From Frigoribacterium sp. Leaf415 (lineage in GTDB: Bacteria > Actinomycetota > Actinomycetes > Actinomycetales > Microbacteriaceae): a DNA stretch of 64,000 bases. The DNA is taken from assembly GCF_001424645.1 (NCBI RefSeq), contig NZ_LMQR01000001.1:1732149-1796148 (forward strand). The letters run 5' to 3'. The stretch's first letter is position 1. Every line of letters begins with the position of its first letter. The notes below the pieces were generated by a model that made no database searches, was not told where the DNA came from, and saw nothing but the letters and a program-made list of their open reading frames with translations. A program made the translations under genes and the position numbers. Positions 3,057 through 24,936 of this stretch are shown here, in pieces.

Positions 3057-4228
3057 CCGGCCACCGCCAGAGGTGAGCACGCGCCGAGGCTCGTGCCCTC
3101 GAGCTGCAGGGCGGCCAGCGCCGCCCAGGCGGTGCCGTAGTACGTCGGGGTCGACTGCGACAAGGCGTCGGCGGTGCGCAGGTCGGCGGCGGCCCGGTCG
3201 TGCTGGCCGTCGCTGGCCTCGGCCGCCGCGCGGGCGGCGTAGGCGAGCGGGCTCTGGTCCGAGCCCAGGGACTGCCCGCCGAGGTCGAGTTGCATCGGCA
3301 GCTCGTCGTACCGCTGCAGCACGGAGGCCATCGAGGCGGCGAGGGCCACGTCGTCCGGCTGGCACGACTCGGCGTAACGCAGGGCCAACCGTCCCGCGTC
3401 GTAGCTGTACTGCACGGTGCCCGACGAGCCGTCGGCGCTCGGCAGCGGCACGGTCGTGCCGTCCTGCCGCACCTGGGCCCAGTCGCTCGGCAGGGCCGTC
3501 GACGAGAGGATGTTCGTGGTCACGGCACGCGAGCCGGCCTCGAGCTCGGCCCACCGGGGGTCGCCGCTGGCGGCGCCGAGCTGCGCGAAGGTGGCGGGCG
3601 AGGCGTACGAGGGGTTGTACGACCACGGGCCGGGGCCCATCGCCCACGGGCCGGGCAGCAGGATGCGGCCGACGTCGGTCGAGACCGTCATCTCGTCGAG
3701 CACGTCGGTGCCGAGGTCGACACCCGCGGTGGTGAGGTCGGGTCGGTCGAACGTCGAGCCGGCGAGCACGAGGGCCCGGGCCGCGTCGACGTCGGCGTCG
3801 CTGGCGGGCATGTCGTCGACCACCGCGCCGTCCTTCCACTGCCAGGCGAGCAGTCCGTCGGGACGGACGAGCTCGTCCTCCGTCCAGCGCCAGATGGCGT
3901 CGAACCGCTTCTCGTCGCCCACGGCGACCGCGACGAGCAGCCCGTAGGCCTGCCCTTCGCTGACGGTGTCGTCGCCCTGGTCGCGCCGGACGACGCGGCC
4001 GTCGTCGTCGACGTAGTCCGCCAGGAAGTCCTCGCCGATCTCGGTGGCGGTGCGGGGTTGCGGGGTCGCGGTGCCCGCGCCGGGGGTGCCGGTCGCGTCC
4101 GCACCGCCGCCTGCCTGGTCCGTCGACGGGCCGCCGGGCCCTCCGACGACGAGGGAGGCGATGCCGGCCGTGACGGCGATCGCCACCACGACGGCCGCTG
4201 CGAGCAGCGCCTTCGTCTTCTTCGTCAT
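3053..4228 (-). CDS. Secreted glycoside hydrolase family 8 protein
   Basis: Predicted extracytoplasmic endo-beta-glucanase-type hydrolase. The 391-aa protein starts MTKKTK, with a membrane/signal segment at residues 6-28 and a Gly/Thr/Pro linker to about 60. The GH8 signature SEGQAYG (acid Glu91) is followed by a DASDADVD-like segment with candidate base aspartates near 144-146 and by a PSYASP motif. AGGAG lies just upstream of the ATG. In bacterial cellulose operons GH8 enzymes (BcsZ) trim nascent beta-glucan; next to two cellulose-synthase-like GT2 genes the same role on a local glycan is likely but unproven. Confidence 0.8.
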   Translation of the reverse strand: MTKKTKALLAAAVVVAIAVTAGIASLVVGGPGGPSTDQAGGGADATGTPGAGTATPQPRTATEIGEDFLADYVDDDGRVVRRDQGDDTVSEGQAYGLLVAVAVGDEKRFDAIWRWTEDELVRPDGLLAWQWKDGAVVDDMPASDADVDAARALVLAGSTFDRPDLTTAGVDLGTDVLDEMTVSTDVGRILLPGPWAMGPGPWSYNPSYASPATFAQLGAASGDPRWAELEAGSRAVTTNILSSTALPSDWAQVRQDGTTVPLPSADGSSGTVQYSYDAGRLALRYAESCQPDDVALAASMASVLQRYDELPMQLDLGGQSLGSDQSPLAYAARAAAEASDGQHDRAAADLRTADALSQSTPTYYGTAWAALAALQLEGTSLGACSPLAVAG

Positions 4229-5237: not shown

Positions 5238-5335
5238 GGAGGCTGGTCCTTTCCGGTCGGGTGCCCCACCCGGGACGGGTGGGACGCGGTGAGGAGGTGC
5301 CGGTGCCCGCCCGAGGACGGGCACCGGCGTGGCGA

Positions 5336-7342
5336 TCAGTTCGAGAGGACGCCGGTCGGGGCGACGGCCGAGAAGGTGACGCGCAGTCCGTCACCCGAGG
5401 GGACGACGGACTCGGGGACGTAGACGCTGCCCAGTCCCTCGAGCGTCGCCTGCAGCTCGTCGACGGACTGGCCGCCCTGCGGGGTGATGTCGATCTGCCG
5501 GAACAGGGCGTCCTGCTCGCCCGGCAGGGCCTCGGGATCGGCGACCGAGATCGGCCCCTGGGCGGCGAGCTGGCCCAGCACGATGATCGCGCGCGGGTCG
5601 ATCCGACCGTCCGAGAGCGCCGTCGACAGGGTCGACGAGATCTGCAGGTTCGGGTTCTGGGCGAGTTCGGCACCGGCCTGCGCGCGGGCCGACGCGGCGT
5701 CGTCCGCCTCGGTCTGCGCCTGAGCGGCGCCCTGGCTGTCGATCTGCCGGACGTTGACCTGCTGGTCGCCGTCGCCGAACGAGGCGATGACGGTCGAGTT
5801 CGCGAGGGCCTCGCGGATCTCGGGCGACGTGGGCCCCGACGTGCGGACCGACTCGGTCTCGAACAGGTAGTCCGAGTCGCGCCAGCCGTTCGGCGACTGC
5901 GCCTGGACGGCGCCGTCGGTGTCGATCTTGTAGAACCAGATCACGTTGTCGCGGGCGAAGCCGGCCTTGACCAGGTCGACCCACACGGCGTCGTCCACCA
6001 GCAGGCGGCTGTCCTTCGGCACGTTCGTCTCGACCCAGCTCTCGGCGTTGCGCATGGGCGCGTCGAGGTCGCTGTCCAGGAAGCCGCGCAACTGCACGGC
6101 CCAGAGGGGGACGATCGCGACGACGGCCGCGAGGGTCAGGGCGAGCCAGGCGACCGAGCCGGTGCGGGTGGCCGCGGTCGAGAGCGCGCCGGCACGACGG
6201 GCACGGAACGCCTTCACGGCGTGGTCGGTGACGGCCGCGACGAGCAGCGCCGCGAACGGCAGCAGCATGATCACGTAGGGCACCGGCAGGTAGCCGCCGG
6301 GACGGAACATGAACGCGATCAGGAAGACCATCATCACGCCGAGCGGACGCAGCTTCCTGACGAAGACCGCGACCACCGAGGCGAGCGTGCCCAGCACGAT
6401 GAGCACCTGGTCGAGCTGCCACCACTGCGACACGGTCGCGAAGAACAGGCTGCCGGTGTCGAAGACCGAGCCGCTGGCTTCGCGGGTGGCGAGTTGGAAC
6501 TGGATGCCCTCGAGCAGGCTCACCCGGCCGGCGCCGGGCAGCAGTTCGCCCTTCACCGCGGCGAGCGCGACGTAGCCGAGGCCGACGAGCACGAGCAGGC
6601 TGCCCGCGATCGACAACGTGTAGCGACGGGTCGACTTGTCGGCCCCGCGCCACATCATCCACGCCAGGAAGGGCAGCGCGAGCAGGTAGGTCTCCTTCGA
6701 GAGCACGGCGATGCCGAACGACAGCGACGCGGCGGCGAAGCCGGCGAGCTGGTAGCGCTTGCTCAGGGCGAAGACGAAGGCCGCGAGCAACCACGGGGTG
6801 GCGACGTTGTCGAGGTAGACCGTGCGGTGGAACTGCAGGGCCAGCGGCGACACGGCGAACACGAGACCGGCGACGGCCGCCGCGGGACGACCGAGACCGA
6901 GCTTGCGGCCGAGCAGCCAGACGAGCGCGACCGAGACGACCGTGAAGAAGAGCATCGCCTCGCGAGCCGCGAGCACGGCGACGTCGTACCGCGAGAAGGC
7001 ACCGGTCAGGGCCGTGTAGGCCGAGATCTGCAGCCAGCCGACGGGCGGGTGGTCGTACCAGTAGGTGTAGTGGGTGATCTCGCCGAGGTTCTGGATCGCC
7101 CAGGCCTGGGCGGCGTAGGTTCCCTCGTCGTCGATGCGCTGCGGCGAGCCGTCCATGTTGAACGCCATGACGACGGCGGCGACCGCGAGGACGGGCAGCA
7201 GCCACGCGAGGCTCGCGCCGTGCCGGCGCAACCACGAAGCCGGCCGCGCGCCGCGCGAGTCCCTGGTGGGGACCACGGGGGTGCCCGAGCCGTTCGACAC
7301 GGTGGTGTCGGCCGCGCGGGGGCGGTTCAGCGTGCTGGTCAT
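5336..7342 (-). CDS. GT39-type polyprenol-phosphate-sugar transferase, membrane protein
   Basis: Predicted GT-C enzyme taking a sugar from a polyprenyl phosphate on the outer membrane face. The 668-aa protein opens with a cytosolic tail, a first membrane helix at about 44-62, and the acidic loop motif RIDDEGTYAAQAW (70-81) followed by YWYDHPPVGW, both typical of the PMT/ArnT group. About ten hydrophobic segments follow to residue ~400, then a soluble C-terminal region with an Ala/Gln-rich stretch. The ATG overlaps the stop of the upstream GT2 gene by four bases. The polyprenyl-phosphate donor could come from ppm1 nearby. Confidence 0.8.
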   Translation of the reverse strand: MTSTLNRPRAADTTVSNGSGTPVVPTRDSRGARPASWLRRHGASLAWLLPVLAVAAVVMAFNMDGSPQRIDDEGTYAAQAWAIQNLGEITHYTYWYDHPPVGWLQISAYTALTGAFSRYDVAVLAAREAMLFFTVVSVALVWLLGRKLGLGRPAAAVAGLVFAVSPLALQFHRTVYLDNVATPWLLAAFVFALSKRYQLAGFAAASLSFGIAVLSKETYLLALPFLAWMMWRGADKSTRRYTLSIAGSLLVLVGLGYVALAAVKGELLPGAGRVSLLEGIQFQLATREASGSVFDTGSLFFATVSQWWQLDQVLIVLGTLASVVAVFVRKLRPLGVMMVFLIAFMFRPGGYLPVPYVIMLLPFAALLVAAVTDHAVKAFRARRAGALSTAATRTGSVAWLALTLAAVVAIVPLWAVQLRGFLDSDLDAPMRNAESWVETNVPKDSRLLVDDAVWVDLVKAGFARDNVIWFYKIDTDGAVQAQSPNGWRDSDYLFETESVRTSGPTSPEIREALANSTVIASFGDGDQQVNVRQIDSQGAAQAQTEADDAASARAQAGAELAQNPNLQISSTLSTALSDGRIDPRAIIVLGQLAAQGPISVADPEALPGEQDALFRQIDITPQGGQSVDELQATLEGLGSVYVPESVVPSGDGLRVTFSAVAPTGVLSN

Positions 7343-8829
7343 CGGTCACCTCCGGTCATGGCCATGGCGGGCTCCTGCTGGGAGGCGCGGGGCGCCTCCT
7401 CGGGTGTCGTCGCGACCTCGTCGCGGTGCGCGCCGGTGTGCTCGGTCTTCTCCCACGCGTTGAGGCCCTTCAGCTGGCGGAAGACCGCCCGGACCGCGGC
7501 GAGCGCGAGGAAGATCTGGTAGGGCAGCAGGCCCCAGACGAGACGGAAGTAGTCCCGGGCCCGGACCTTCTGGCCGTAGACCCGCCCGAACTCGCGCAGG
7601 CCGGTGAACTCGACGGCCAGCAGCACGAGCGTCGGCGCCAGGGGCACGAACGAGACGAGGGCGATGGCGGTCGGCACCTTCGTGGTCAGGATCAGGATGA
7701 TCGAGACGGGGATCAGCAGACCGGTGGCGGCCTGGATGAACGGCATGGTCAGCAGGTAGCGGGCCATGAGGCGCTGGCGCAGACGGGGCAGCTTCTTCCA
7801 CTCGCCCTTGCCGTAGACCTGCATGAAGCCCTGGTTCCAGCGGGTGCGCTGCTTCAGCAGCGAGACGAAGGTGCCGGGGGTCTCCTCACGGGTGACGACC
7901 TCGGGGCTGTAGGCCACGACGACCTTGGCGCCGGCGCTCGAGAGGCGGACGCCGAGCTCGCAGTCCTCGGCGAGGCACTCGGCGTCCCAGCCCTCGGACC
8001 AGTCGAGCCAGTCCTTGCGCACGAAGACGGTGTTGCCGCCGAGCGGGATGAACTTCTCCTTGGCGTGGAAGTGAAGGCGCGATCGGAACCAGAAGTAGTA
8101 CTCGAGCACGTTGCGGAGGCTCCACCAGCTGCTCTGGAAGTTCATCAGCTGGACGCCGCCCTGCACCACGTCGGCGTCGGTCTCGGTGAACCGCGAGTCG
8201 ACGAGCGTCAGGAGGCGGGGGTGCACCTCGTCCTCGGCGTCGAACACGCCGACGATCTCGCCGCGCGACGACTGGAGGGCCAGGTTCAGCGCCTTGGGCT
8301 TGTTCTTCGGCACGCTCGAGTCGACGACCACGCGGATCAGTTCGGGGTGACGAGCGGCCGCCTCACGGGCGACCCGCTCGGTGCCGGGGTCGTCGTGGCC
8401 CACGATGGCGATGATCTCGAAGTCGGGGTGGTCCTGCTGGGCGAGACGGTCGAGGGTCTGGCCCATGACCTCCTCCTCGTGCCGGCCGGGGACGAGCAGG
8501 GTGAACGAGTGGGCGGCGTCGAGCGGGTTCTCGCTGAACTGGCTGTCGTCGAGGTTGTCCTTCGACCGCCAGGCGTGCAGCATCCACCAGAGGGTCGACA
8601 CGGCGACGGCGGTCAGCAGGATCGTCACGACGATCAGGGACGAGTAGCCGATCCATTCGAGGGGCGACCAGTCGGGCAACTGGAAGCCGATCGTCGACTC
8701 GGCGGCACCGGTCGAGCCACGGTTCGGGACGAACTGCGACGGGTCGGCGGGGGCTTGCGGGGTGAGCAGCGGCGCGGGTTCGCCTGCTGCGAGATGTGAT
8801 GTCGGGATCTGGGTCGGGTCAGTCGACAC
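7339..8829 (-). CDS. Cellulose-synthase-like processive GT2, catalytically intact
   Basis: Membrane glycosyltransferase of the BcsA/hyaluronan-synthase type, predicted to polymerise and extrude a glycan from a nucleotide sugar. The 496-aa protein has a Pro-rich leader with FVPNRG (33-38), a membrane helix at 59-82, and the GT-A core with NKPKALN (176-182), FDAED (196-200), LAEDCELG (286-293) and the QRTRW signature (327-331). Three to four C-terminal helices follow. No PilZ domain is present. The GTG start has GGAGAG upstream. A degenerate paralogue lies 0.7 kb upstream in the same direction, separated by gtrA. Confidence 0.87.
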   Translation of the reverse strand: MSTDPTQIPTSHLAAGEPAPLLTPQAPADPSQFVPNRGSTGAAESTIGFQLPDWSPLEWIGYSSLIVVTILLTAVAVSTLWWMLHAWRSKDNLDDSQFSENPLDAAHSFTLLVPGRHEEEVMGQTLDRLAQQDHPDFEIIAIVGHDDPGTERVAREAAARHPELIRVVVDSSVPKNKPKALNLALQSSRGEIVGVFDAEDEVHPRLLTLVDSRFTETDADVVQGGVQLMNFQSSWWSLRNVLEYYFWFRSRLHFHAKEKFIPLGGNTVFVRKDWLDWSEGWDAECLAEDCELGVRLSSAGAKVVVAYSPEVVTREETPGTFVSLLKQRTRWNQGFMQVYGKGEWKKLPRLRQRLMARYLLTMPFIQAATGLLIPVSIILILTTKVPTAIALVSFVPLAPTLVLLAVEFTGLREFGRVYGQKVRARDYFRLVWGLLPYQIFLALAAVRAVFRQLKGLNAWEKTEHTGAHRDEVATTPEEAPRASQQEPAMAMTGGDR

Positions 8830-14884: not shown

Positions 14885-16579
14885 ATGACCGCCCCGATCG
14901 ATCGCCCGTGGCTGCACAGCTACGCCCCCGACGTCCCCGACGACATCGAGCCCGTGACGGGCAGCCTCGTCGACCTCATCGACGACGCCGTGTCGACGTA
15001 CCGGCAGAAGCCGGCCCTCGAGTTCTTCGGCCGTGAGACCAGCTACCGCGACCTGGGCGACCAGGTCGCGCGCGCGGCCGAGGGCCTCAGGAGGCTCGGC
15101 GTGGGTCGAGGCGACCGGGTCGCCTTGATCCTGCCGAACAGCCCTCAGCACGTGGTGGCGTTCTACGCCGTGCTGCGCCTCGGTGCCGTCGTGGTGGAGC
15201 ACAACCCGCTCTACACCGACCGCGAGTTGCGGCACCTCTTCGAGGACCACGGCGCCACGATCGCCATCGCGTGGGACAAGCTGGTCGACCGGCTGCGCTC
15301 GCTGCCCGCCGACATCGGCTTCTCGACCGTCGTCTCGGTCGACGTGACGAAGGGCATGCCGCTCGGCACGCGCCTCGCCCTCAAGCTGCCGGTGCCCGCG
15401 GCGAAGAAGAGCCGCGCGGCCCTGACCGACGGAGTCGAGGGCGACGTCACCTGGCAGGGCCTGCTGGCGAACCGTCCGTTGCGCAAGAAGCACCCGCGCC
15501 CCGACGTCGACGACATCGCCCTGCTGCAGTACACCAGCGGCACCACGGGGTCACCGAAGGGCGCGATCCTGACGCATCGCAACCTCCGCAGCAACGCCGC
15601 GCAGGGTCGGGCTTGGGTGCCCGGCCTGGTCGACGGCGACGAGACGGTCTACGGCGTGCTGCCGTTCTTCCACGCCTACGGCCTGACGCTCTGCCTCACC
15701 TTCGCGATGAGCATCGGGGCACGCCTCGTGCTGTTCCCGAAGTTCGACGTCGACCTCGTGCTCAAGGCCGCGAAGAAGCACCCGCCGACCTTCCTGCCGG
15801 CCGTGCCGCCGATCTACCAGCGCCTGGCCGACGCGGCCCGTGAGCGCGGCGTCGACCTGTCGTCGGCCCGCTTCGCGATCTCGGGCGCGATGAACCTGCC
15901 GACCGCGGTCGTCCAGGCCTGGGAGGGCGTCACGGGCGGCATGCTCGTCGAGGGATTCGGGCTGACCGAGACCTCGCCGGTCGCCCTGGGCAACCCGATC
16001 GGCCCGACCCGCCGCGTCGGCACCGTCGGCGTGCCGTTCCCCTCCACCGAGGCGATGGTCGTCGATCGCAACGACCCCGACCCGAGCCGTCCGGTCGTCG
16101 CCGGGGCCGCGGGAGAACTGCTGCTTCGAGGGCCGCAGGTCTTCCGCGGTTACTGGAACCGCCCCGACGAGACCGCCGAGGCCTTCCTCGAGGGCGGCTG
16201 GTTCCGCACCGGCGACATCGTCACCATGAGTGCCGACGGCTACGTCACGATCGTCGACCGCATCAAAGAGCTCATCGTCACGGGCGGCTTCAACGTCGCC
16301 CCCTCGGAGGTCGAGGAGGCCGTGCGGAACGCCCCCGGCGTGGCCGAGGTTGCCGTGGTCGGCCTGCCCCGGTCGGGCGGCGGCGAGGACGTCGTCGCGG
16401 CCGTCGTGCTCGAGCCGGGCGCCTCGTTCGACGCCGAGGCCATCCGCGACGCCTCACGCGGCCAACTCGCGGCCTACAAGGTGCCGCGTCGGGTCGTGCA
16501 GCTCGACGAGTTGCCGAAGTCGCTGATCGGCAAGGTGCTGCGGCGCGAGGTGCGCGACCGGCTCATCGCCGCGGGCTGA
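14885..16579 (+). CDS. fadD: Long-chain fatty-acid-CoA ligase (copy 1)
   Basis: Acyl-adenylate/thioester-forming enzyme that activates fatty acids with ATP and CoA. The 564-aa protein has the AMP-binding P-loop YTSGTTGSPKGA, PFFHAYGL, the GFGLTETSP motif, GWFRTGDI and the C-terminal IDRIKELI-type hinge (here VDRIKELIVTGGFNV). The C-terminal LPKSLIGKVLRREVR includes the catalytic lysine. It opens with WLHSYAPDVPDDIEP. A close paralogue sits at 23.3-24.9 kb with the same opening and architecture, so the two probably arose by duplication. Confidence 0.9.
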   Translation: MTAPIDRPWLHSYAPDVPDDIEPVTGSLVDLIDDAVSTYRQKPALEFFGRETSYRDLGDQVARAAEGLRRLGVGRGDRVALILPNSPQHVVAFYAVLRLGAVVVEHNPLYTDRELRHLFEDHGATIAIAWDKLVDRLRSLPADIGFSTVVSVDVTKGMPLGTRLALKLPVPAAKKSRAALTDGVEGDVTWQGLLANRPLRKKHPRPDVDDIALLQYTSGTTGSPKGAILTHRNLRSNAAQGRAWVPGLVDGDETVYGVLPFFHAYGLTLCLTFAMSIGARLVLFPKFDVDLVLKAAKKHPPTFLPAVPPIYQRLADAARERGVDLSSARFAISGAMNLPTAVVQAWEGVTGGMLVEGFGLTETSPVALGNPIGPTRRVGTVGVPFPSTEAMVVDRNDPDPSRPVVAGAAGELLLRGPQVFRGYWNRPDETAEAFLEGGWFRTGDIVTMSADGYVTIVDRIKELIVTGGFNVAPSEVEEAVRNAPGVAEVAVVGLPRSGGGEDVVAAVVLEPGASFDAEAIRDASRGQLAAYKVPRRVVQLDELPKSLIGKVLRREVRDRLIAAG

Positions 16580-17385: not shown

Positions 17386-18303
17386 TCAGGCGGCCGTCCA
17401 CCCGATGCGGTCGAGCCGTGCGAGGGCGTGTTCCTCGGCGACGGGTCGCTTGCCGAGGACTCCCCCGACACCGGCGAGCATGGCCTGGGCCGGCGCCCGG
17501 GTCGGCAGGTCGATCGGCCCGACGTGCGGCGCGCGCAGCCCGAGCAGCTCGCGGAAGCGCGGCTGCAGCGTGCCGACCGCGCCGTTGAAGAGGACGGGGT
17601 AGCCGACCTTGAGCGCGGGGAAGAGGGGCGGACGCTTGATGAACTTCACGACGTCGTCGGTGCGGGCCGTGCGTTCGAGCACGCCTCGACGGTCGAAGTC
17701 CATGAGCTGTTGCTGCATCTCGGCGACGCTGCGCGGCGGGTTCGGCACGCCCATCAGCTCGCCGGCCGTCGCCCACTCGCGGACGTAGGCGTCGGGCCCA
17801 CCCGGGATCGGCTCGCGGCCCCACTCGAGGTAGGCGGCGAGGAACGAGTCGGCGAAGGCCATGTGCACCCAGCTGAGCAGCTCCGGGTCGTTGGCGGCGT
17901 AGTCGTGGCTCACGCCGTTCCGGTCGTCGTACGTGCCGACGACCTTCGTGTGCAGGCGTGACACCCAGTTCGACGCGTGGGTGGCGGCCTCGCGGCTGCC
18001 GTACGAGACGGTGTAGATCCAGCGGATGGTGCCGGCCAGGCGGCCCAGCGGGTCCTCGCGGAAGCGCGAGTGGTCGTGCACGCCGGCGAGCGCCCCCGGG
18101 TGCAGCGCCTGGACGAGCAGGGCCCGCACGCCGGCCGGGATGGTCGACATGGCGCCGTGCACGGCCCACACCGCCGAGCCCGGCAGGAAGAACCCCTCGT
18201 CGTCGCCCTTCTCGAGGTCGGTGACCCACTCGGGCGTGCCCGTGTACTGCCCGTTGAAGGTGTACTGCAGACGGGCGCGGAGCGGTTCGGTCAGAGCGGG
18301 CAT
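17386..18303 (-). CDS. MpaB/DUF2236 family oxygenase-like protein
   Basis: A 305-aa protein of the MpaB/latex-clearing-protein-like family (DUF2236), many of whose members are heme-dependent oxygenases. Recognisable segments are GSAVWAVHGAMSTIPAGVR, an ALHPGALAGVHDHSRF stretch with conserved histidines, the GTIRWIYTVSYGS segment and WVHMAFADSFL. The substrate is unknown. The start ATG has CATGAT exactly 6 bases upstream. It is divergent from the secreted-peptide cassette, sharing a 150-bp intergenic region. Confidence 0.8.
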   Translation of the reverse strand: MPALTEPLRARLQYTFNGQYTGTPEWVTDLEKGDDEGFFLPGSAVWAVHGAMSTIPAGVRALLVQALHPGALAGVHDHSRFREDPLGRLAGTIRWIYTVSYGSREAATHASNWVSRLHTKVVGTYDDRNGVSHDYAANDPELLSWVHMAFADSFLAAYLEWGREPIPGGPDAYVREWATAGELMGVPNPPRSVAEMQQQLMDFDRRGVLERTARTDDVVKFIKRPPLFPALKVGYPVLFNGAVGTLQPRFRELLGLRAPHVGPIDLPTRAPAQAMLAGVGGVLGKRPVAEEHALARLDRIGWTAA

Positions 18304-18315: not shown

Positions 18316-18379
18316 CGCCGCGGTAGCTGGGTGATCCCGACGCCTTCTCGTGGCGTCGAGTCCTTTGTCATTCCGACAC

Positions 18380-18411
18380 TTGACATGGTTATTAAAAACG
18401 AGACGTATCGG
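18380..18411 (+). promoter_or_regulatory. AT-rich promoter region with perfect -35 box, secreted-peptide gene
   Basis: TTGACA at 18380-18385 is a perfect -35. It is followed by an A/T-rich spacer (GGTTATTAAAAACG) unlike anything else in the window, and a weak -10 candidate TATCGG at 18406-18411 (20-base spacing). A leader of roughly 40 bases with AAAGGAGA leads to the ATG. The unusual composition suggests a special or strong promoter. Confidence 0.5.
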
Positions 18412-18454
18412 TTGTGTCGTCCAGCCGGGCGACGATCGAGTCAAAGGAGATTCC

Positions 18455-18742
18455 ATGCAGATCACGCGACGCCGCTCTCTCGGCACCGTCGTCCTCGCCA
18501 CCGCGCTCGCCTTCGGCGGTGCCGTCGCCATGAGCGTCCCGGCCCAGGCCGCCGGAACGTACCGCCTCACGACCGCGAAGACGTACTCACAGGCGACGAC
18601 CCAGACGAGCGGCGGCACCTGGGGCCAGTCCCGCGCCTACCACGGCTGCGCCTCGTCCGTTTCCGCCTGGAGCCAGAGGAGCACCCTCGCCTACGCCAGC
18701 TGCGGGTCGCAGTACGGCTCGGCGCAAGCACTCTTCCGCTGA
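18455..18742 (+). CDS. Small secreted peptide, bacteriocin-like by context
   Basis: A 95-aa precursor I do not recognise as a named family. It has a clear signal peptide (RRR at 5-7, hydrophobic core, VPAQA|AG cleavage near residue 32), giving a ~63-aa mature peptide. That peptide is rich in Ser, Thr, Ala, Gln, Trp and Tyr, with Cys65 and Cys83 able to form one disulfide. It has a strong AAAGGAGA ribosome site and an A/T-rich promoter. It heads a cassette with a lipoprotein, peptidoglycan-binding adaptor, ABC ATPase and permease, an arrangement like lactococcin-972-type operons. The typical Lcn972 motif pattern is absent. Function as a bacteriocin or signalling peptide is inferred. Confidence 0.6.
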   Translation: MQITRRRSLGTVVLATALAFGGAVAMSVPAQAAGTYRLTTAKTYSQATTQTSGGTWGQSRAYHGCASSVSAWSQRSTLAYASCGSQYGSAQALFR

Positions 18743-18745
18743 GCC

Positions 18746-18776
18746 GATGCGGCGAGCCGATGAGGCTCGCCGCATC
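18746..18776 (+). terminator. Attenuator-like hairpin between peptide gene and transport genes
   Basis: GATGCGGCGAGCC (18746-18758), loop GATGA, then the perfect complement (18764-18776) form a 13-bp stem starting 4 bases after the peptide stop. There is no U-run. It probably lowers expression of, or stabilises mRNA upstream of, the transport genes so that the peptide is made in excess. Confidence 0.7.
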
Positions 18777-18816
18777 CTCACCTCCCTCGCCACCCCTCAC
18801 GGATCGGTAGTCGACA

Positions 18817-19440
18817 TTGCGCAGCCTCGCCCCCTCCCTCGTCCTCATCGGCCTCCTCCTCACGACGTCAGCCTGCACGGCGGAACCCGCCCCCCTGGCG
18901 GACACCGATGGCGAGAAGGTCGCCGGAAGCCTCACCGAGCTCTTCGAACGACAACTCGAGCACGAATCCGACCCCTTCGTCGTCGATGTCCTCGAACGGG
19001 CGATCGAGTCCGGGTCGATCACTCAGGGCGATTACGACGCCGCCCACGCGATGTATGACCGCTGCATGTCGGACCTCGGCCACGAACTGGACTACGAGCG
19101 GCGCAAGAACGGGACCCTCGCCGAGACAGGCCCGTTTCCTGATTCGCAAGACGAGCTCGACGCGTTCAGCGACGATGCGGAAGGGTGTGCCGAACAGATC
19201 GCCCCCATCGAGAGCCTCTTCGCCACTCAGAACGGCAATCCCGAGCTCTTGGCCGACCCGGAGACACAGGTCGTGAGGTGTCTCGCCGACCGAGGTCTCA
19301 CACCCGACTCCTACGACGAAGACACCTTTCGATCCGACCTCGAGAAACTCGCGGACTCCCCCTTCCCCTTCGACGTGAACTCACCCGAAGCTCAAGAATG
19401 CTTCGAGAACGCCGGTTTCGGCATCCAGGTCGGATCGTGA
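18817..19440 (+). CDS. Predicted lipoprotein of the secreted-peptide cassette
   Basis: A 207-aa acidic protein with no family I recognise. The TTG start gives MRSLAPSL, a short hydrophobic segment and a lipobox-like LLTTSAC (Cys20). The rest is hydrophilic and helical, with Cys residues in RCMSDLG, EGCAEQI, VRCLADRG and QECFENAG, so disulfides are likely. It has no usual strong ribosome site. It ends in a 4-base overlap with the next gene. By position it may be an immunity or receptor protein for the peptide; this is inference from operon context only. Confidence 0.6.
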   Translation: MRSLAPSLVLIGLLLTTSACTAEPAPLADTDGEKVAGSLTELFERQLEHESDPFVVDVLERAIESGSITQGDYDAAHAMYDRCMSDLGHELDYERRKNGTLAETGPFPDSQDELDAFSDDAEGCAEQIAPIESLFATQNGNPELLADPETQVVRCLADRGLTPDSYDEDTFRSDLEKLADSPFPFDVNSPEAQECFENAGFGIQVGS

Positions 19441-20477
19441 CACGGCCCCGTTCCGTCGCCGTCGCGGCGGTGTGCGGGGTCGCGCTCGTCGCGGCGGGGG
19501 CCTGCCTCGCGGTCGGGCTGGCACCGGTCGAACCGCCGTCGGTGCTCGCCACGGCGATGCCCGGCGACACGGCGCCGGCGACACCCAGCTCGTTCGACGA
19601 CGGTCGCAAGGTGCAGGTCTCGTTCGTCAGCGGCGACCCCGTCGGCGTGACGAGCCCCGTCGGCGGGGTCCTCACCCGACGCCCCTGCACACCGGGCGGC
19701 AGCCTCGACTCGGGCACGGTCGTGGCCCACGTCGACGAACGGCCGCTGCTCGGCCTGCACACGAGCGTGCCGCTCTACCGCGACCTGCAGCTCGGCGACC
19801 GCGGCGCCGACGTCCGCGCCCTCCAAGACGAACTGACGAGGCTCGGACACCCCGTCGGCAGCGACGGCCGTCTCGGCGCCGGCACCGCCCGCGCCGTGGC
19901 GGCACTGCTGAAGGGAGCGGGCATCACCCGTCCTGACGCGCCGCTCGTCCTCCCTCTCGACCAGGTCGTCCGCCTCCCCCGCGTCACGACACCGGTCACC
20001 CGCTGCGCCGACCTCGGCTCCGTCGTCCGGCCCGGCGACGAACTCGCGTCCGCACCCGCGACGGTCAGCGCCGTCCGGCTCTCGTCGATGCCGACCGACC
20101 TCGCTCCCGGGGCGAGGGACCTCTCCGTGCTCGGCGCCACGGGACCGATGACCGACGAGTCCGGCAGCACCGACCCCACCTTCCTCGCCGCCCTCGCGGG
20201 TGCCGAGGGTTTCGACGACCTCGTCGCCACAGCGGACGACGCCATCCCCGCCACCCTCGTGCTGCGCGAGCCGATCCCGGTCCTCCAGGTCCCCGCCGCC
20301 TCCGTCAGAACGGGCGACACTCCCGGGACGGGATGCCTCGCCCTGCCGAGCAGCACCGTCCCGGTCGACATCGTGGGCTCGACCCTCGGCGCCTCGCTCG
20401 TCCGGCTGCCCGAGGGCACCGAGCCACCGACGGAGGTGAGCCTCCGTGTCGACGACCGCCGCGCCTCCTGCGGGTGA
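19437..20477 (+). CDS. Peptidoglycan-binding membrane adaptor of ABC exporter
   Basis: A 346-aa protein starting at GTG (overlapping the upstream stop as GTGA), with an N-terminal membrane anchor (~7-29). A lipoyl-like hammerhead region around residues 76-112 (SPVGGVLTRRP) is followed by a PG_binding_1 domain at about 113-162 (YRDLQLGDRGADVRALQDE). The rest is a beta-rich segment like membrane-fusion proteins. In Gram-positives such adaptors tether MacB-like exporters to the wall. The neighbours are an ATPase and a permease, so this is probably the extracytoplasmic part of that exporter. Confidence 0.7.
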   Translation: MTRPRSVAVAAVCGVALVAAGACLAVGLAPVEPPSVLATAMPGDTAPATPSSFDDGRKVQVSFVSGDPVGVTSPVGGVLTRRPCTPGGSLDSGTVVAHVDERPLLGLHTSVPLYRDLQLGDRGADVRALQDELTRLGHPVGSDGRLGAGTARAVAALLKGAGITRPDAPLVLPLDQVVRLPRVTTPVTRCADLGSVVRPGDELASAPATVSAVRLSSMPTDLAPGARDLSVLGATGPMTDESGSTDPTFLAALAGAEGFDDLVATADDAIPATLVLREPIPVLQVPAASVRTGDTPGTGCLALPSSTVPVDIVGSTLGASLVRLPEGTEPPTEVSLRVDDRRASCG

Positions 20478-21153
20478 CGGGACTCCACGGCCGTCGGTCA
20501 CGGCGGACCGGATCGCCGTCCGACACGGACGGGGGCCCGAGCTCTTCCGCGACCTCAGCTTCCGCCTCGCCCCCGGCGAGGTCGTCGCCGTCTGCGGCCC
20601 TTCGGGCTGCGGCAAGTCGTCGCTGCTCTCGGTGCTGGCCGGCACACTGGCCCCCGTGGCCGGCAGCGTCGACCTGACCGGCGTCGCCCGCACCGGCTGG
20701 GTGTTCCAGAACCCTTGGGGCGTCCCCGGCCGCAGCACCCTCGACCACGTCGTCTTCCCCTTGCTGGCCGACGGCTCGCGACGTCGCGACGCCGAGCCCG
20801 TCGCCCGCCACACCCTCGACCGCTTCGGGCTCCTGCCACTCGCCGACCGGCCGTTCGCCCAGCTCTCCGGCGGCGAAGCGCAACGGCTCATGCTCGCCCG
20901 GGCCGTCGCCACCCGACCCGACCTGCTGCTCGTCGACGAGCCCACCGCGCAGCTCGACCGACGGTCCGCCGCGACGGTCAACGACCGCCTGCGGGCCGCG
21001 GCCGACGACGGTGCGACGGTCGTCGTCGCCACCCACGACCCGCAGACCCGCGACGCCTGCACCCGGGTGATCGACCTCGGCCCGACCGACCGTGCCACCG
21101 GGCTCGACGCCGAGGCAGGGTCGGCACCGCGCACCGTCGAGACGACCCCGTGA
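20446..21153 (+). CDS. ABC transporter ATPase of the secreted-peptide cassette
   Basis: MacB/LolD-type nucleotide-binding subunit, 235 aa. Walker A is GPSGCGKSS, the signature LSGGEAQRL, Walker B LLLVDEPTA, with a switch histidine in VVATHDPQT. The called GTG overlaps the adaptor gene by 32 bases. A later start is possible but would trim the N-terminal strand region before VTADRIAV. It is coupled to the following permease by a GTGA overlap. Confidence 0.88.
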   Translation: MSTTAAPPAGDGTPRPSVTADRIAVRHGRGPELFRDLSFRLAPGEVVAVCGPSGCGKSSLLSVLAGTLAPVAGSVDLTGVARTGWVFQNPWGVPGRSTLDHVVFPLLADGSRRRDAEPVARHTLDRFGLLPLADRPFAQLSGGEAQRLMLARAVATRPDLLLVDEPTAQLDRRSAATVNDRLRAAADDGATVVVATHDPQTRDACTRVIDLGPTDRATGLDAEAGSAPRTVETTP

Positions 21154-22211
21154 GACTCTCGAGCGTGCTGAGCGAGGCCGGCCGCGACATCCGCTCCGGC
21201 ACCACCCGCTTCGCGACCTTCGCCCTGCTGCTCGCCGCCACCACCGGCATCGCCGGCGCCGCGGACGTCGGCACCGTGGCGTCCCTGACCCGCGACGCCT
21301 CCGCCTACGTCGCCTCGGGCGCCGCGACCCGCACCGCCGCTCGGGAAGGCGGCATCGACGGCGCCGCCTGCGACGCACTCGCCGGGCAGGGCGACGTCCT
21401 CGCCGCCGGGGCCCTGCGCCCGGGCCCCGGCCTCGCGCTCACCGCCCTGCCCGGAGCCACGCTGTCGACCTTCGAGGTCACCCCCGGTCTGGCGGCCCTG
21501 ATCGCCGACTCCGACGGGCGCGCCGGCGCCTGGCTCTCCCCCACGCTCGCCGAGCGCCTCGGAGCCGCCGCAGGTGACGAGCTCGGCACACCGCAGGGCC
21601 CGCTGCCCGTCGCGGGGGTCTTCGTGCACCCGGACGACGGGCGCGACAGCCGCCTCTCGTCCGCCGTGCTGCTGCCCGGCGACACATCACGCCCGTTCGA
21701 CGAGTGCTGGGCCCGTGCCTGGCCGCAGGGCGACAGCACCGACGACCTCCTGAGGTCCACGACATCGTCGTCGGCCGGTCCGACGGCACCCCTGTCACTC
21801 GGCCAGCTCAACGCATCGCTCGGGTCGACCTTCGACACCGACGCCGTCGGCGAGCGCCTCACCCGCTGGGCCCCCGCCGTCGCCGCGGTGACGGCCGCCG
21901 TGCTCGGCGTCGTGTCCGTCCGGCGTCGACGGCTCGAACTCAGCGGGGCCCGTCAGGCCGGTCAGAGCCGGACGGCGCAACTCGCCGTGGTGGTCGTCGA
22001 GACCGCGGCCTGGGCCGTCTGCGGGGCCGTCGTCGCCTCGGGAGTCACGGCACTCACCCTGCTGTTCGATGCGGACTCCCTCGTCGACTCCCCCGCGCAC
22101 CTGCTCACGGCGGCACCACTGGCCGCCGCCGCCGGGGCGGTCCTCGCCGCCGCCCTGACCACGGCCACGATCCGCCGCCGCGATCTCGTCCGGTGGTTCA
22201 AGGACCGGTGA
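21150..22211 (+). CDS. FtsX/MacB-like four-helix permease of the secreted-peptide cassette
   Basis: A 353-aa membrane protein from GTG (MRLSSVL). One N-terminal helix (residues ~19-40) is followed by a ~200-residue extracytoplasmic domain with Cys in AACDALAG and DECWARAW. Three C-terminal helices follow (WAPAVAAVTAAVLGVVSV; VVVVETAAWAVCGAVVAS; LLTAAPLAAAAGAVLAAAL). This 1+3 topology is that of FtsX/MacB permeases. With the ATPase and adaptor it should form a complete mechanotransmission-type exporter or a self-immunity pump. Sequence similarity to named FtsX members is weak. Confidence 0.7.
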   Translation: MRLSSVLSEAGRDIRSGTTRFATFALLLAATTGIAGAADVGTVASLTRDASAYVASGAATRTAAREGGIDGAACDALAGQGDVLAAGALRPGPGLALTALPGATLSTFEVTPGLAALIADSDGRAGAWLSPTLAERLGAAAGDELGTPQGPLPVAGVFVHPDDGRDSRLSSAVLLPGDTSRPFDECWARAWPQGDSTDDLLRSTTSSSAGPTAPLSLGQLNASLGSTFDTDAVGERLTRWAPAVAAVTAAVLGVVSVRRRRLELSGARQAGQSRTAQLAVVVVETAAWAVCGAVVASGVTALTLLFDADSLVDSPAHLLTAAPLAAAAGAVLAAALTTATIRRRDLVRWFKDR

Positions 22212-22212
22212 G

Positions 22213-22232
22213 CCGCGAGACGGCTCGCGGCG
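22213..22232 (+). terminator. Hairpin right after the peptide-cassette operon
   Basis: GCCGCGAG, loop ACGG, CTCGCGGC: a perfect 8-bp stem beginning 2 bases after the permease stop. Confidence 0.65.
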
Positions 22233-22252
22233 GCGTCCCCGCGGACGCACGC

Positions 22253-22292
22253 CGCGCCTCCTGCGTCCCGGGGAGGAGGCAGGAGGCGCGGT
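22253..22292. terminator. Bidirectional hairpin from paired GAGGCGCGG motifs
   Basis: CCGCGCCTCCTGC (22253-22265) and its exact complement (22280-22292) enclose a 14-base loop between the convergent permease and SDR genes. Confidence 0.65.
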
Positions 22293-22311
22293 GTGCGTGA
22301 CGGGGCGGGTG

Positions 22312-23253: not shown

Positions 23254-24936
23254 GTGACCACCGACAGCGCTCGTCCCTGGCTCGACTCCTACGCACCCGG
23301 CGTGCCGCACGACCTCGAACCGGTCGACGGCTCGCTGCTCGACCTGGTCGAGGCCTCCGCCGCGCGGTATCCGAGGGCGGTGGCGCTCGAGTTCTTCGGG
23401 GCGACGACCACCTACTCCGAGCTCGTCGACCAGATCTCGCGGGCGGCCGAGGGGCTGCGCAGGCTCGGCGTCGGGCACGGCGACACGGTCGCGATCGTGC
23501 TGCCGAACGGTCCGCAGCACGTCGTCGCGTTCTACGCGGTGCTGCGCCTCGGGGCGATCGTCGTCGAGCACAACCCGCTCTACACGCCGCGTGAGCTGCG
23601 TCACCAGTTCGAGGACCACGGCGCCAAGGTCGCCATCGCCTGGAACAAGGTGGTCGACACGATCCAGGCCTTCCCCGACGACGTCGCCGTCGAGCACCTC
23701 GTCTCGGTCGACGTCACCCGGGCGATGCCGTTCGCCACGCGGGCCGCCCTGGCCCTGCCGATCAAGAAGGCCCGCGAGTCCCGCGAGCGGCTGACGACGA
23801 CCGTGTCGGGCACCACCCCGTGGGAGAAGGTCGTCGGCTCGGCGCGCATCAAGGCGAAGCACCCGCGACCGGTCACCGACGACCTCGCGGTCATCCAGTA
23901 CACGAGCGGCACCACCGGCACGCCCAAGGGCGCCCAGCTGACGCACCACAACCTGCTGTCCAACGCCGCGCAGGCCCAGGCCTGGGTGCCGACGATCGAG
24001 CGCGGCACCTGCGTCGTCTACGCCGTGCTGCCGATGTTCCACGCCTACGGCCTCACGCTCTGCCTCACCTTCGCCATGAGCATGGGTGCCCGCCTCGTGC
24101 TCTTCCCCGCCTTCGACCCGGCACTCGTGCTCAAGGTGATGAAGAAGCACCCGCCGACCTTCCTGCCCGCCGTACCGCCGATCTACGCGCGCCTGCAGAA
24201 GGCCGCGCTCGACGCGGGCGTCTCGCTGAAGGGCGTCGACGTCGCGATCTCGGGCGCGATGCCCCTCTCGGCCGACGTCGTCGAGCCGTGGGAGGCCGAG
24301 TCCGGCGGCTGGCTGGTCGAGGGCTACGGGCTGTCCGAGTGCTCGCCCGTGCTCATGGCCAACCCGGTCGGGCCGACGCGTCGCGCGGGCACGGTCGGTC
24401 TGCCCCTGCCGGGCACCGAGGTGCGGGTCGTCGACCCCGAGAACCCCACGGTCGACGTGCCGGCCGGCGAACGCGGCGAGCTGATCGTCCGCGGCCCGCA
24501 GGTGTTCAGCGGGTACTACCGCAAGCCGAAAGAATCGGGCGAGGTCTTCGTCGACGGCGACTGGTTCCGCACCGGCGACATCGTCACCATCGACGACGAC
24601 GGCTTCGTCCGCATCGTCGACCGCATCAAAGAGCTGATCATCACGGGCGGGTTCAACGTCTCGCCGTCCGAGGTCGAAGAGGTGCTGACCCGGTTCGAGG
24701 GCGTCGCCGAGGCGGCCGTCGTCGGCCTGCCGACCCCCGGCGGCGAGCAGGTGGCCGCCGCCATCGTCACCAAGCCGGGTGCCCACGTCGACGTCGCGGC
24801 CCTGCGCTCGTTCGCCCGCAAGCACCTCACGCCCTACAAGGTGCCGCGACGCATCGTCGTCGTGGACGACCTGCCCCGGTCGCTGATCGGCAAGGTCCTG
24901 CGGCGCAAGGTGCGCGACTCGCTCGCCGAGCGCTGA
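23254..24936 (+). CDS. fadD: Long-chain fatty-acid-CoA ligase (copy 2)
   Basis: AMP-forming acyl-CoA ligase, 560 aa from a GTG start. Motifs are the P-loop YTSGTTGTPKGA, MFHAYGL, GYGLSECSP, WFRTGDI and VDRIKELIITGGFNV, with a C-terminal LIGKVLRRKVR. It matches copy 1 at 14.9-16.6 kb along the full length, including the N-terminal LDSYAPGVPHDLEP and the conserved LVLFPAFD region. Differences in the substrate-side motif (SECS versus TETS) suggest different acyl preference. It is monocistronic and apparently leaderless. Confidence 0.9.
   Translation: MTTDSARPWLDSYAPGVPHDLEPVDGSLLDLVEASAARYPRAVALEFFGATTTYSELVDQISRAAEGLRRLGVGHGDTVAIVLPNGPQHVVAFYAVLRLGAIVVEHNPLYTPRELRHQFEDHGAKVAIAWNKVVDTIQAFPDDVAVEHLVSVDVTRAMPFATRAALALPIKKARESRERLTTTVSGTTPWEKVVGSARIKAKHPRPVTDDLAVIQYTSGTTGTPKGAQLTHHNLLSNAAQAQAWVPTIERGTCVVYAVLPMFHAYGLTLCLTFAMSMGARLVLFPAFDPALVLKVMKKHPPTFLPAVPPIYARLQKAALDAGVSLKGVDVAISGAMPLSADVVEPWEAESGGWLVEGYGLSECSPVLMANPVGPTRRAGTVGLPLPGTEVRVVDPENPTVDVPAGERGELIVRGPQVFSGYYRKPKESGEVFVDGDWFRTGDIVTIDDDGFVRIVDRIKELIITGGFNVSPSEVEEVLTRFEGVAEAAVVGLPTPGGEQVAAAIVTKPGAHVDVAALRSFARKHLTPYKVPRRIVVVDDLPRSLIGKVLRRKVRDSLAER

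Follow-up and report, generated by a model that had tools for sequence, protein, structure and literature searches.

A five-gene cassette on the + strand of a 64,000-nucleotide stretch of Frigoribacterium sp. Leaf415 (contig NZ_LMQR01000001.1, positions 1,732,149 to 1,796,148; the whole stretch is hereafter called the window) was analysed, and its simplest reading is a bacteriocin of the sandwich type that is secreted by Sec, with a lipoprotein as antidote and a pump that acts outwards. Taken as a whole, the explanation that the cassette is a horizontally movable, probably narrow-spectrum bacteriocin and self-protection system is held with somewhat better than even confidence. What the analysis shows is gene anatomy, distribution, co-variation and predicted fold; the mechanism is a proposal. 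The features of the cassette are as follows:

18331-22234, no strand: accessory island, the inserted cassette, bounded by the ends of homology with cassette-free sites
18405-18439, + strand: upstream box GTATCGGTTGTGTCGTCCAGCCGGGCGACGATCGA, probable promoter or operator region, kept upstream of peptide copies
18455-18742, + strand: secreted peptide precursor, 95 amino acids (aa), ATG start, strong ribosome site AAAGGAG upstream
18551-18739, + strand: mature peptide part, 63 aa, predicted lactococcin 972 (Lcn972)-like beta sandwich, cysteines 65 and 83
18746-18776, + strand: 13-bp hairpin directly 3' of the peptide stop, without a T run
18817-19440, + strand: lipoprotein, 207 aa, TTG start, lipobox Cys20, four further invariant cysteines; proposed cognate immunity protein
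19437-20477, + strand: membrane-anchored adaptor with a peptidoglycan-binding-like domain, GTG start, PG_binding_1 E 1.2e-4, N-terminal hydrophobic segment
20446-21153, + strand: ATPase of the ATP-binding cassette (ABC) type, 235 aa, GTG start, ABC_tran E 6.4e-27, without a peptidase domain
21150-22211, + strand: permease, 353 aa, GTG start, 1+3 helices, outer domain of about 200 residues
22208-22228, + strand: closing hairpin of the operon (predicted fold), without a T run

The sequence itself gave the starts, stops and overlaps, and a home-made script selected the starts of open reading frames. The five + strand genes proposed by a sequence-only reading of this DNA were borne out, as were the overlaps joining the last four (GTGA at 19437-19440, 32 bases at 20446-20477 and GTGA at 21150-21153). 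The open reading frames were accepted as genes because they are conserved in the cassette of Frigoribacterium sp. VKM Ac-2836, not because of their length. Third-codon-position guanine-plus-cytosine content is 0.80-0.91 across all five genes. The hairpin said to close the operon is present, but it lacks a T run and no entry of the terminator scan falls there.

The peptide is almost certainly secreted through Sec, judging from an RRR motif, a hydrophobic stretch and an AQA cleavage motif at residues 30-32 (all read by eye), which leave a mature peptide of 63 aa. The predicted structure shows the beta sandwich of 2LGN and aligns with it end to end, at equal length and 8% identity; on this model the peptide very probably has the Lcn972-type fold. 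The window peptide had no match in Pfam or NCBIfam, including PF09683 and TIGR01653, and none of 17 window-type (A2) peptides matched PF09683 at E <= 1. The earlier statement that the mature peptide lacks the lactococcin-972 pattern is thus right for the sequence and wrong for the predicted fold. We consider the peptide likely to be antibacterial.

Close relatives of the peptide are few. A search of 5.8 billion proteins gave 29 candidates, four of which passed E <= 0.01, one being 99% identical, of unrecorded source and perhaps the window's own; the peptide was present in 2 of 149 related genomes, the window's own included. A tblastn search of 80 loci that the permease profile had located recovered more distant relatives; together with peptides picked by eye, these gave 17 aligned window-type peptides, here termed class II, from Microbacteriaceae, Cellulomonadaceae, Propionibacteriaceae, Nocardiopsidaceae and Micromonosporaceae. 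Their invariant mature residues are S59, A61, H63, G64, W72, A79, A81, G84 and A90. The two cysteines noted in the window's mature peptide were found at 65 and 83, and class II cysteines are paired (65/83 in seven, 33-34/54 in seven, none in three and an odd number in none of the 17), as expected of a disulfide outside the cell, with the caveat that the 65/83 and 33-34/54 types also divide by lineage. A second peptide of locus L196, found later, has yet another cysteine set.

The lipoprotein is somewhat more likely than not to be the immunity protein, and its co-variation with the peptide points in this direction. Among 14 class II loci (first pair used for L053), peptide distance correlated most strongly with that of the lipoprotein (r 0.74), followed by the adaptor (0.51), permease (0.44) and ATPase (0.41). 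The partial correlation of peptide and lipoprotein given the permease was 0.67 (permutation p 0.0005, 2000 permutations), and that of peptide and permease given the lipoprotein was -0.16. Class II formed a single supported clade in the trees of the lipoprotein (15 rows, 100/100), permease (14, 100/98) and adaptor (14, 100/98), with stem lengths of 2.1 (the drawn root lying on this branch), 0.19 and 0.26, respectively. Median end branches were 0.62, 0.47 and 0.56, which means that the difference in stem length cannot be put down to general rate alone. Four class changes among the three classes were needed in each tree; therefore, the counts alone do not single out the lipoprotein.

Gene content points the same way. 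In 39 class I-III loci (window included), with peptides counted as full length from at least 75% of the model and lipoproteins from 50%, lipoproteins outnumbered full-length peptides in 6, equalled them in 33 and were fewer in none. Curtobacterium salicis (L094:346-4341) carries four tandem Curtobacterium-type peptide-lipoprotein pairs and an additional 56-residue lipoprotein fragment before a single adaptor, ATPase and permease, and Curtobacterium sp. MCPF17_052 (L114) has two pairs and a lone lipoprotein. In VKM Ac-2836, a divergent first pair is followed by a truncated copy, in which the upstream box runs straight into the final ~23 codons of a window-like peptide, and then by an intact lipoprotein 89% identical to the window's. 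L160 holds another remnant: ahead of an intact lipoprotein stands the later half of a class I peptide, its signal missing. That the peptide is lost while the lipoprotein stays is as predicted for an antidote. The peptide and the lipoprotein of L054 and L062 are about 2 kb apart, the peptide coming first.

One locus goes the opposite way and weighs against the immunity step. L196 (genome G372; 6150-8068), which stands outside the 39-locus count, contains a peptide, a lipoprotein, an internally shortened lipoprotein retaining the signal and C-terminal part, and a second class II peptide, followed by the adaptor. Because of this exception, our confidence in the immunity role and in the explanation as a whole was lowered slightly. 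The placement of that second peptide beside the shortened lipoprotein would suit a lipoprotein that is an active toxin partner, namely a second component or display platform, with the ABC module alone giving protection, as would the joint duplication (L094, L114) and co-variation of the pair; but intact lipoproteins remain where the peptide is broken or absent, and we regard this alternative as quite unlikely.

Across 27 sequences, the lipoprotein keeps the lipobox Cys20, cysteines 83, 124, 155 and 195, and N141-P142. Its AlphaFold2 model (mean predicted local distance difference test score 87.6) is mostly helical with one small beta hairpin. Pfam gave no convincing match for the 27 lipoproteins (best E 0.0042, TPR_19, one member), and the model had no convincing structural relative; no NisI or SpaI structure appeared among the matches listed, which cannot exclude one.

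The 1+3-helix architecture proposed for the permease was confirmed by family-averaged hydropathy (20 sequences), which places helices at about 22-40, 241-259, 286-304 and 323-341, with a large outer domain separating helices 1 and 2, the topology of type VII (MacB/LolCDE) systems. Two cysteines of the outer domain, 74 and 186, are invariant in the 20 aligned sequences. The permease had no Pfam match and matched LolC weakly (E 0.17). The PG_binding_1 score of the adaptor (22.6 bits) falls just below the Pfam cut-off of 23; adaptor profile matches occurred in 49 of 149 genomes, although many are weak and probably represent other adaptors. All NCBIfam matches listed for the ATPase (25 of 197 models) were below cut-off, TIGR03608 giving 109.2 bits against 254.85, and no large Lcn972-type membrane protein was found among the five cassette genes. 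On balance, we lean slightly towards a pump acting on the outside.

The idea of a secreted-peptide cassette with dedicated partners was upheld, but its 'adaptor-type ABC exporter' part became doubtful, since the peptide signal is of Sec type and the permease topology is that of pumps for substrates outside the membrane. A dedicated exporter, with the peptide leaving the cell through adaptor, ATPase and permease and the lipoprotein acting as a chaperone of secretion that has no immunity role, would fit the single operon and the inheritance of the pump genes with the peptide class. Nevertheless, it is unlikely given the Sec-type signal and AxA site without a double-glycine leader (by eye) and an ATPase consisting of the ABC domain only; extra lipoproteins without peptides are also hard to square with a chaperone. 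Moreover, streptococcin B, a peptide like Lcn972, still left the cell when the ComAB transporter was absent, and in the available text of PMC11796350 its authors read this as favouring Sec. A lipoprotein beside an ABC transporter, co-varying with the peptide, would also suit a signalling system with the lipoprotein as receptor or binding protein and the ABC set importing or sensing the peptide. We consider this very unlikely: a folded, disulfide-closed 63-residue sandwich is an improbable uptake substrate, the permease topology is not an importer's, no regulator is present among the five genes, the fold match is to a bacteriocin family, and peptide loss with the lipoprotein kept suits immunity better.

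Under the preferred reading of bacteriocin, antidote and outward-acting pump, the peptide would leave the cell by Sec, be cut after AQA and fold in the wall into an Lcn972-like sandwich with one disulfide, as its sequence suggests. From its fold, it would probably stop cell-wall synthesis in close relatives as Lcn972 does, through binding to a precursor such as lipid II. The lipoprotein, on the outer face of the membrane, would bind its cognate peptide and protect the producer, a step suggested by co-variation and gene loss. Least surely, the adaptor and the MacB/LolCDE-like ATPase and permease may push the peptide or peptide-lipoprotein complex off the membrane and into or through the wall, thereby serving secretion and immunity at once in the NisI/NisFEG manner, rather than transporting a leader peptide across the membrane.

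The upstream box is kept before three peptide copies (the window's and two in VKM Ac-2836) and before the truncated copy, and no sigma-70 consensus was found. The hairpin at 18746-18776, which the sequence-only reading had passed over, had a z of -4.0 against 100 shuffles. Over the 70 bases that follow the peptide stop, z fell below -2 in 10 of 14 copies of class II, 9 of 18 of class I and 4 of 11 of class III, compared with 4.5% of 200 control stretches (100 shuffles per site, 30 per control). This hairpin probably allows production of the peptide in excess over its partners; having no T run, it may stabilise the peptide mRNA or slow read-through. A terminator-like stem with a T-rich tail was also observed at 18338-18358, just inside the left edge of the island and upstream of the box.

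The cassette behaves as an accessory island. Homology on the left ends at 18330 in all four aligned cassette-free sites and resumes on the right at 22235 (two sites) or 22242 (two sites). The neighbour gene 17386-18303, which we take to be of DUF2236 type, is present in 16 of 16 genus genomes, the window's included; it directly adjoins an SDR-like gene in 14, and the cassette separates the two in the window. Cassette genes lie beside it only in the window genome and VKM Ac-2836 (G010), where the same site shows tblastn identities of 61% for the peptide, 47 and 89% for two lipoproteins, and 85, 88 and 96% for the remaining three genes. No integrase was found among the five genes, and no direct repeat joining the island edges among the repeat families listed (20 of 26). 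A long hairpin at 22245-22298, behind the SDR-like gene, was seen by eye in five cassette-free sites, so it is older than the island and part of the old locus. The insertion locus is flanked by two acyl-CoA synthetase-like genes, 14885-16579 and 23254-24936, with about 61% identity over their aligned part; the relatives examined have this bracket too, but no cassette within it.

Permease relatives occurred in 13 of 149 genomes. In a collection of 84,980 species genomes, 150 stretches were confirmed, and the best 80 of the 150 entered the analysis. Loci L157 and L159, which duplicate L116 and L091, were left out, and L073, without an adaptor match, was not counted. More than 1.5 kb precedes the adaptor in 80 of 90 loci (window not counted, duplicates dropped); of these 80, 75 contain the lipoprotein family and 36 a class I-III peptide by profile (class I 18, class II 13, class III 5), the class and lipoprotein profiles having been built from these same loci, so that members match by construction. 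All 14 class I peptides scanned match PF09683 (set A3, its members picked by eye for the pattern), one being the canonical peptide of L153. The 149 genomes hold 20 PF09683 places, and six lie just before a homologous adaptor by coordinates. Class III is a third sequence class (ACWGQITQ...GKNYTGCG...), and still other peptide sequences occur at further chassis loci.

A class-wide sample of 394 genomes contained 19 with an A2 match at E <= 0.001; window-type peptides were accepted in four of them, namely the window genome, G265, G381 and G372. The three other than the window genome all have complete cassettes, which agrees with co-occurrence of the peptide with adaptor, ATPase and permease, G265 being apparently the same contig as L064, already in the profile. 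Of the 15 genomes with weaker A2 matches, three were examined (G305, G525 and G286), and none of these three had a cassette gene. One outcome that would speak against the sequence-only reading, namely ATPase and permease homologues serving another substrate, was partly encountered, for homologous sets serve other peptide classes, including true Lcn972. Taken together, there is about an even chance that this is an unnamed actinobacterial bacteriocin platform, in which one four-gene chassis (helical immunity lipoprotein, wall-binding adaptor, ATPase and 1+3 permease) swaps cognate peptide-lipoprotein pairs of several sequence-unrelated classes, at least two sharing the Lcn972 fold, in tandem arrays of up to four. 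The chassis was not found described in literature searches on Lcn972, which covered titles and abstract starts among the matches listed, with subscription journals mostly outside their scope.

Further small secreted peptides with other sequences precede the same chassis at L129:3247-3552, L161:3101-3406, L166:1903-2205, L088:2949-3269, L125:920-1291, L124:2736-3065 and L165:2891-3208. Next to the cassette of L092, the opposite strand (3461-3634, - strand) matches the classical Lcn972 profile in part, perhaps as an inverted fragment. In L164 (6652-8426), two lipoproteins and a sequence that weakly matches a Bifidobacterium-type peptide follow the permease rather than preceding it.

A separate lipoprotein, which evolves fast and follows the changes of its peptide, is the proposed antidote here. 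Species that lack the cassette but have almost the same flanks are natural candidates for sensitive strains, making the toxin, antidote and pump roles testable. The Lcn972 fold is suggested to reach beyond Pfam and NCBIfam recognition; sequence-based genome mining would accordingly miss possibly wall-active peptides, here in five actinobacterial families. If true, the platform reading would explain how Lcn972-like peptides of Actinomycetota are matched with immunity and a pump, a logic that has been missing.

MacB/LolCDE systems combine a 1+3 helix permease bearing a large outer domain after helix 1 with a separate ATPase and a membrane-anchored adaptor. The cassette shares this type VII arrangement, and differs in the profile matches of its permease given above. 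The available text of PMC12646458 assigns FtsEX, LolCDE and MacAB to type VII of the ABC systems, and that of PMC8062640 names a mechanotransmission mechanism for MacAB-TolC.

The lactococcin-972-like layout proposed earlier was supported. With the Lcn972 family (PF09683/TIGR01653; PDB 2LGN, 9HKJ), the cassette shares the predicted beta sandwich, a Sec-type signal, a mature part of 63-66 residues and downstream ABC genes, and classical members use the same chassis in other actinobacteria. Unlike them, the window peptide does not match PF09683, has a cysteine pair whereas Lcn972 is described as having no cysteines (available text of PMC8538875), and is partnered by a lipoprotein, adaptor and short permease rather than one large membrane protein. 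Lcn972 is a beta sandwich that binds lipid II at the septum (PMC9964109, part available), and the functions of partner genes in Lcn972-like loci have been verified in no locus according to the available part of PMC11796350. A canonical Lcn972 operon also exists in the window genome (L153:5305-8698 = G000:C1:2537304-2540697), comprising a peptide (5305-5691), a 700-aa membrane protein (5770-7872) and an ATPase (7859-8698); by tblastn, its three genes occur in three other genus members (G009, G010 and G014). It represents the same product type in the same organism, but no lipoprotein or adaptor gene was called between its genes, and its ATPase scores 199.5 bits on TIGR03608 against the window's 109.2, both below the cut-off.

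In nisin producers, protection is provided by the lipoprotein NisI with the ABC transporter NisFEG (PMC8538875, part available). No sequence link to NisI/NisFEG was found, the cassette adds a wall-binding adaptor, and its lipoprotein has a mostly helical model with a small beta hairpin and four invariant cysteines. The likeness would be one of mechanism by analogy only: in both, a lipoprotein and an ABC transporter may shield the producer from a peptide that binds a wall precursor.

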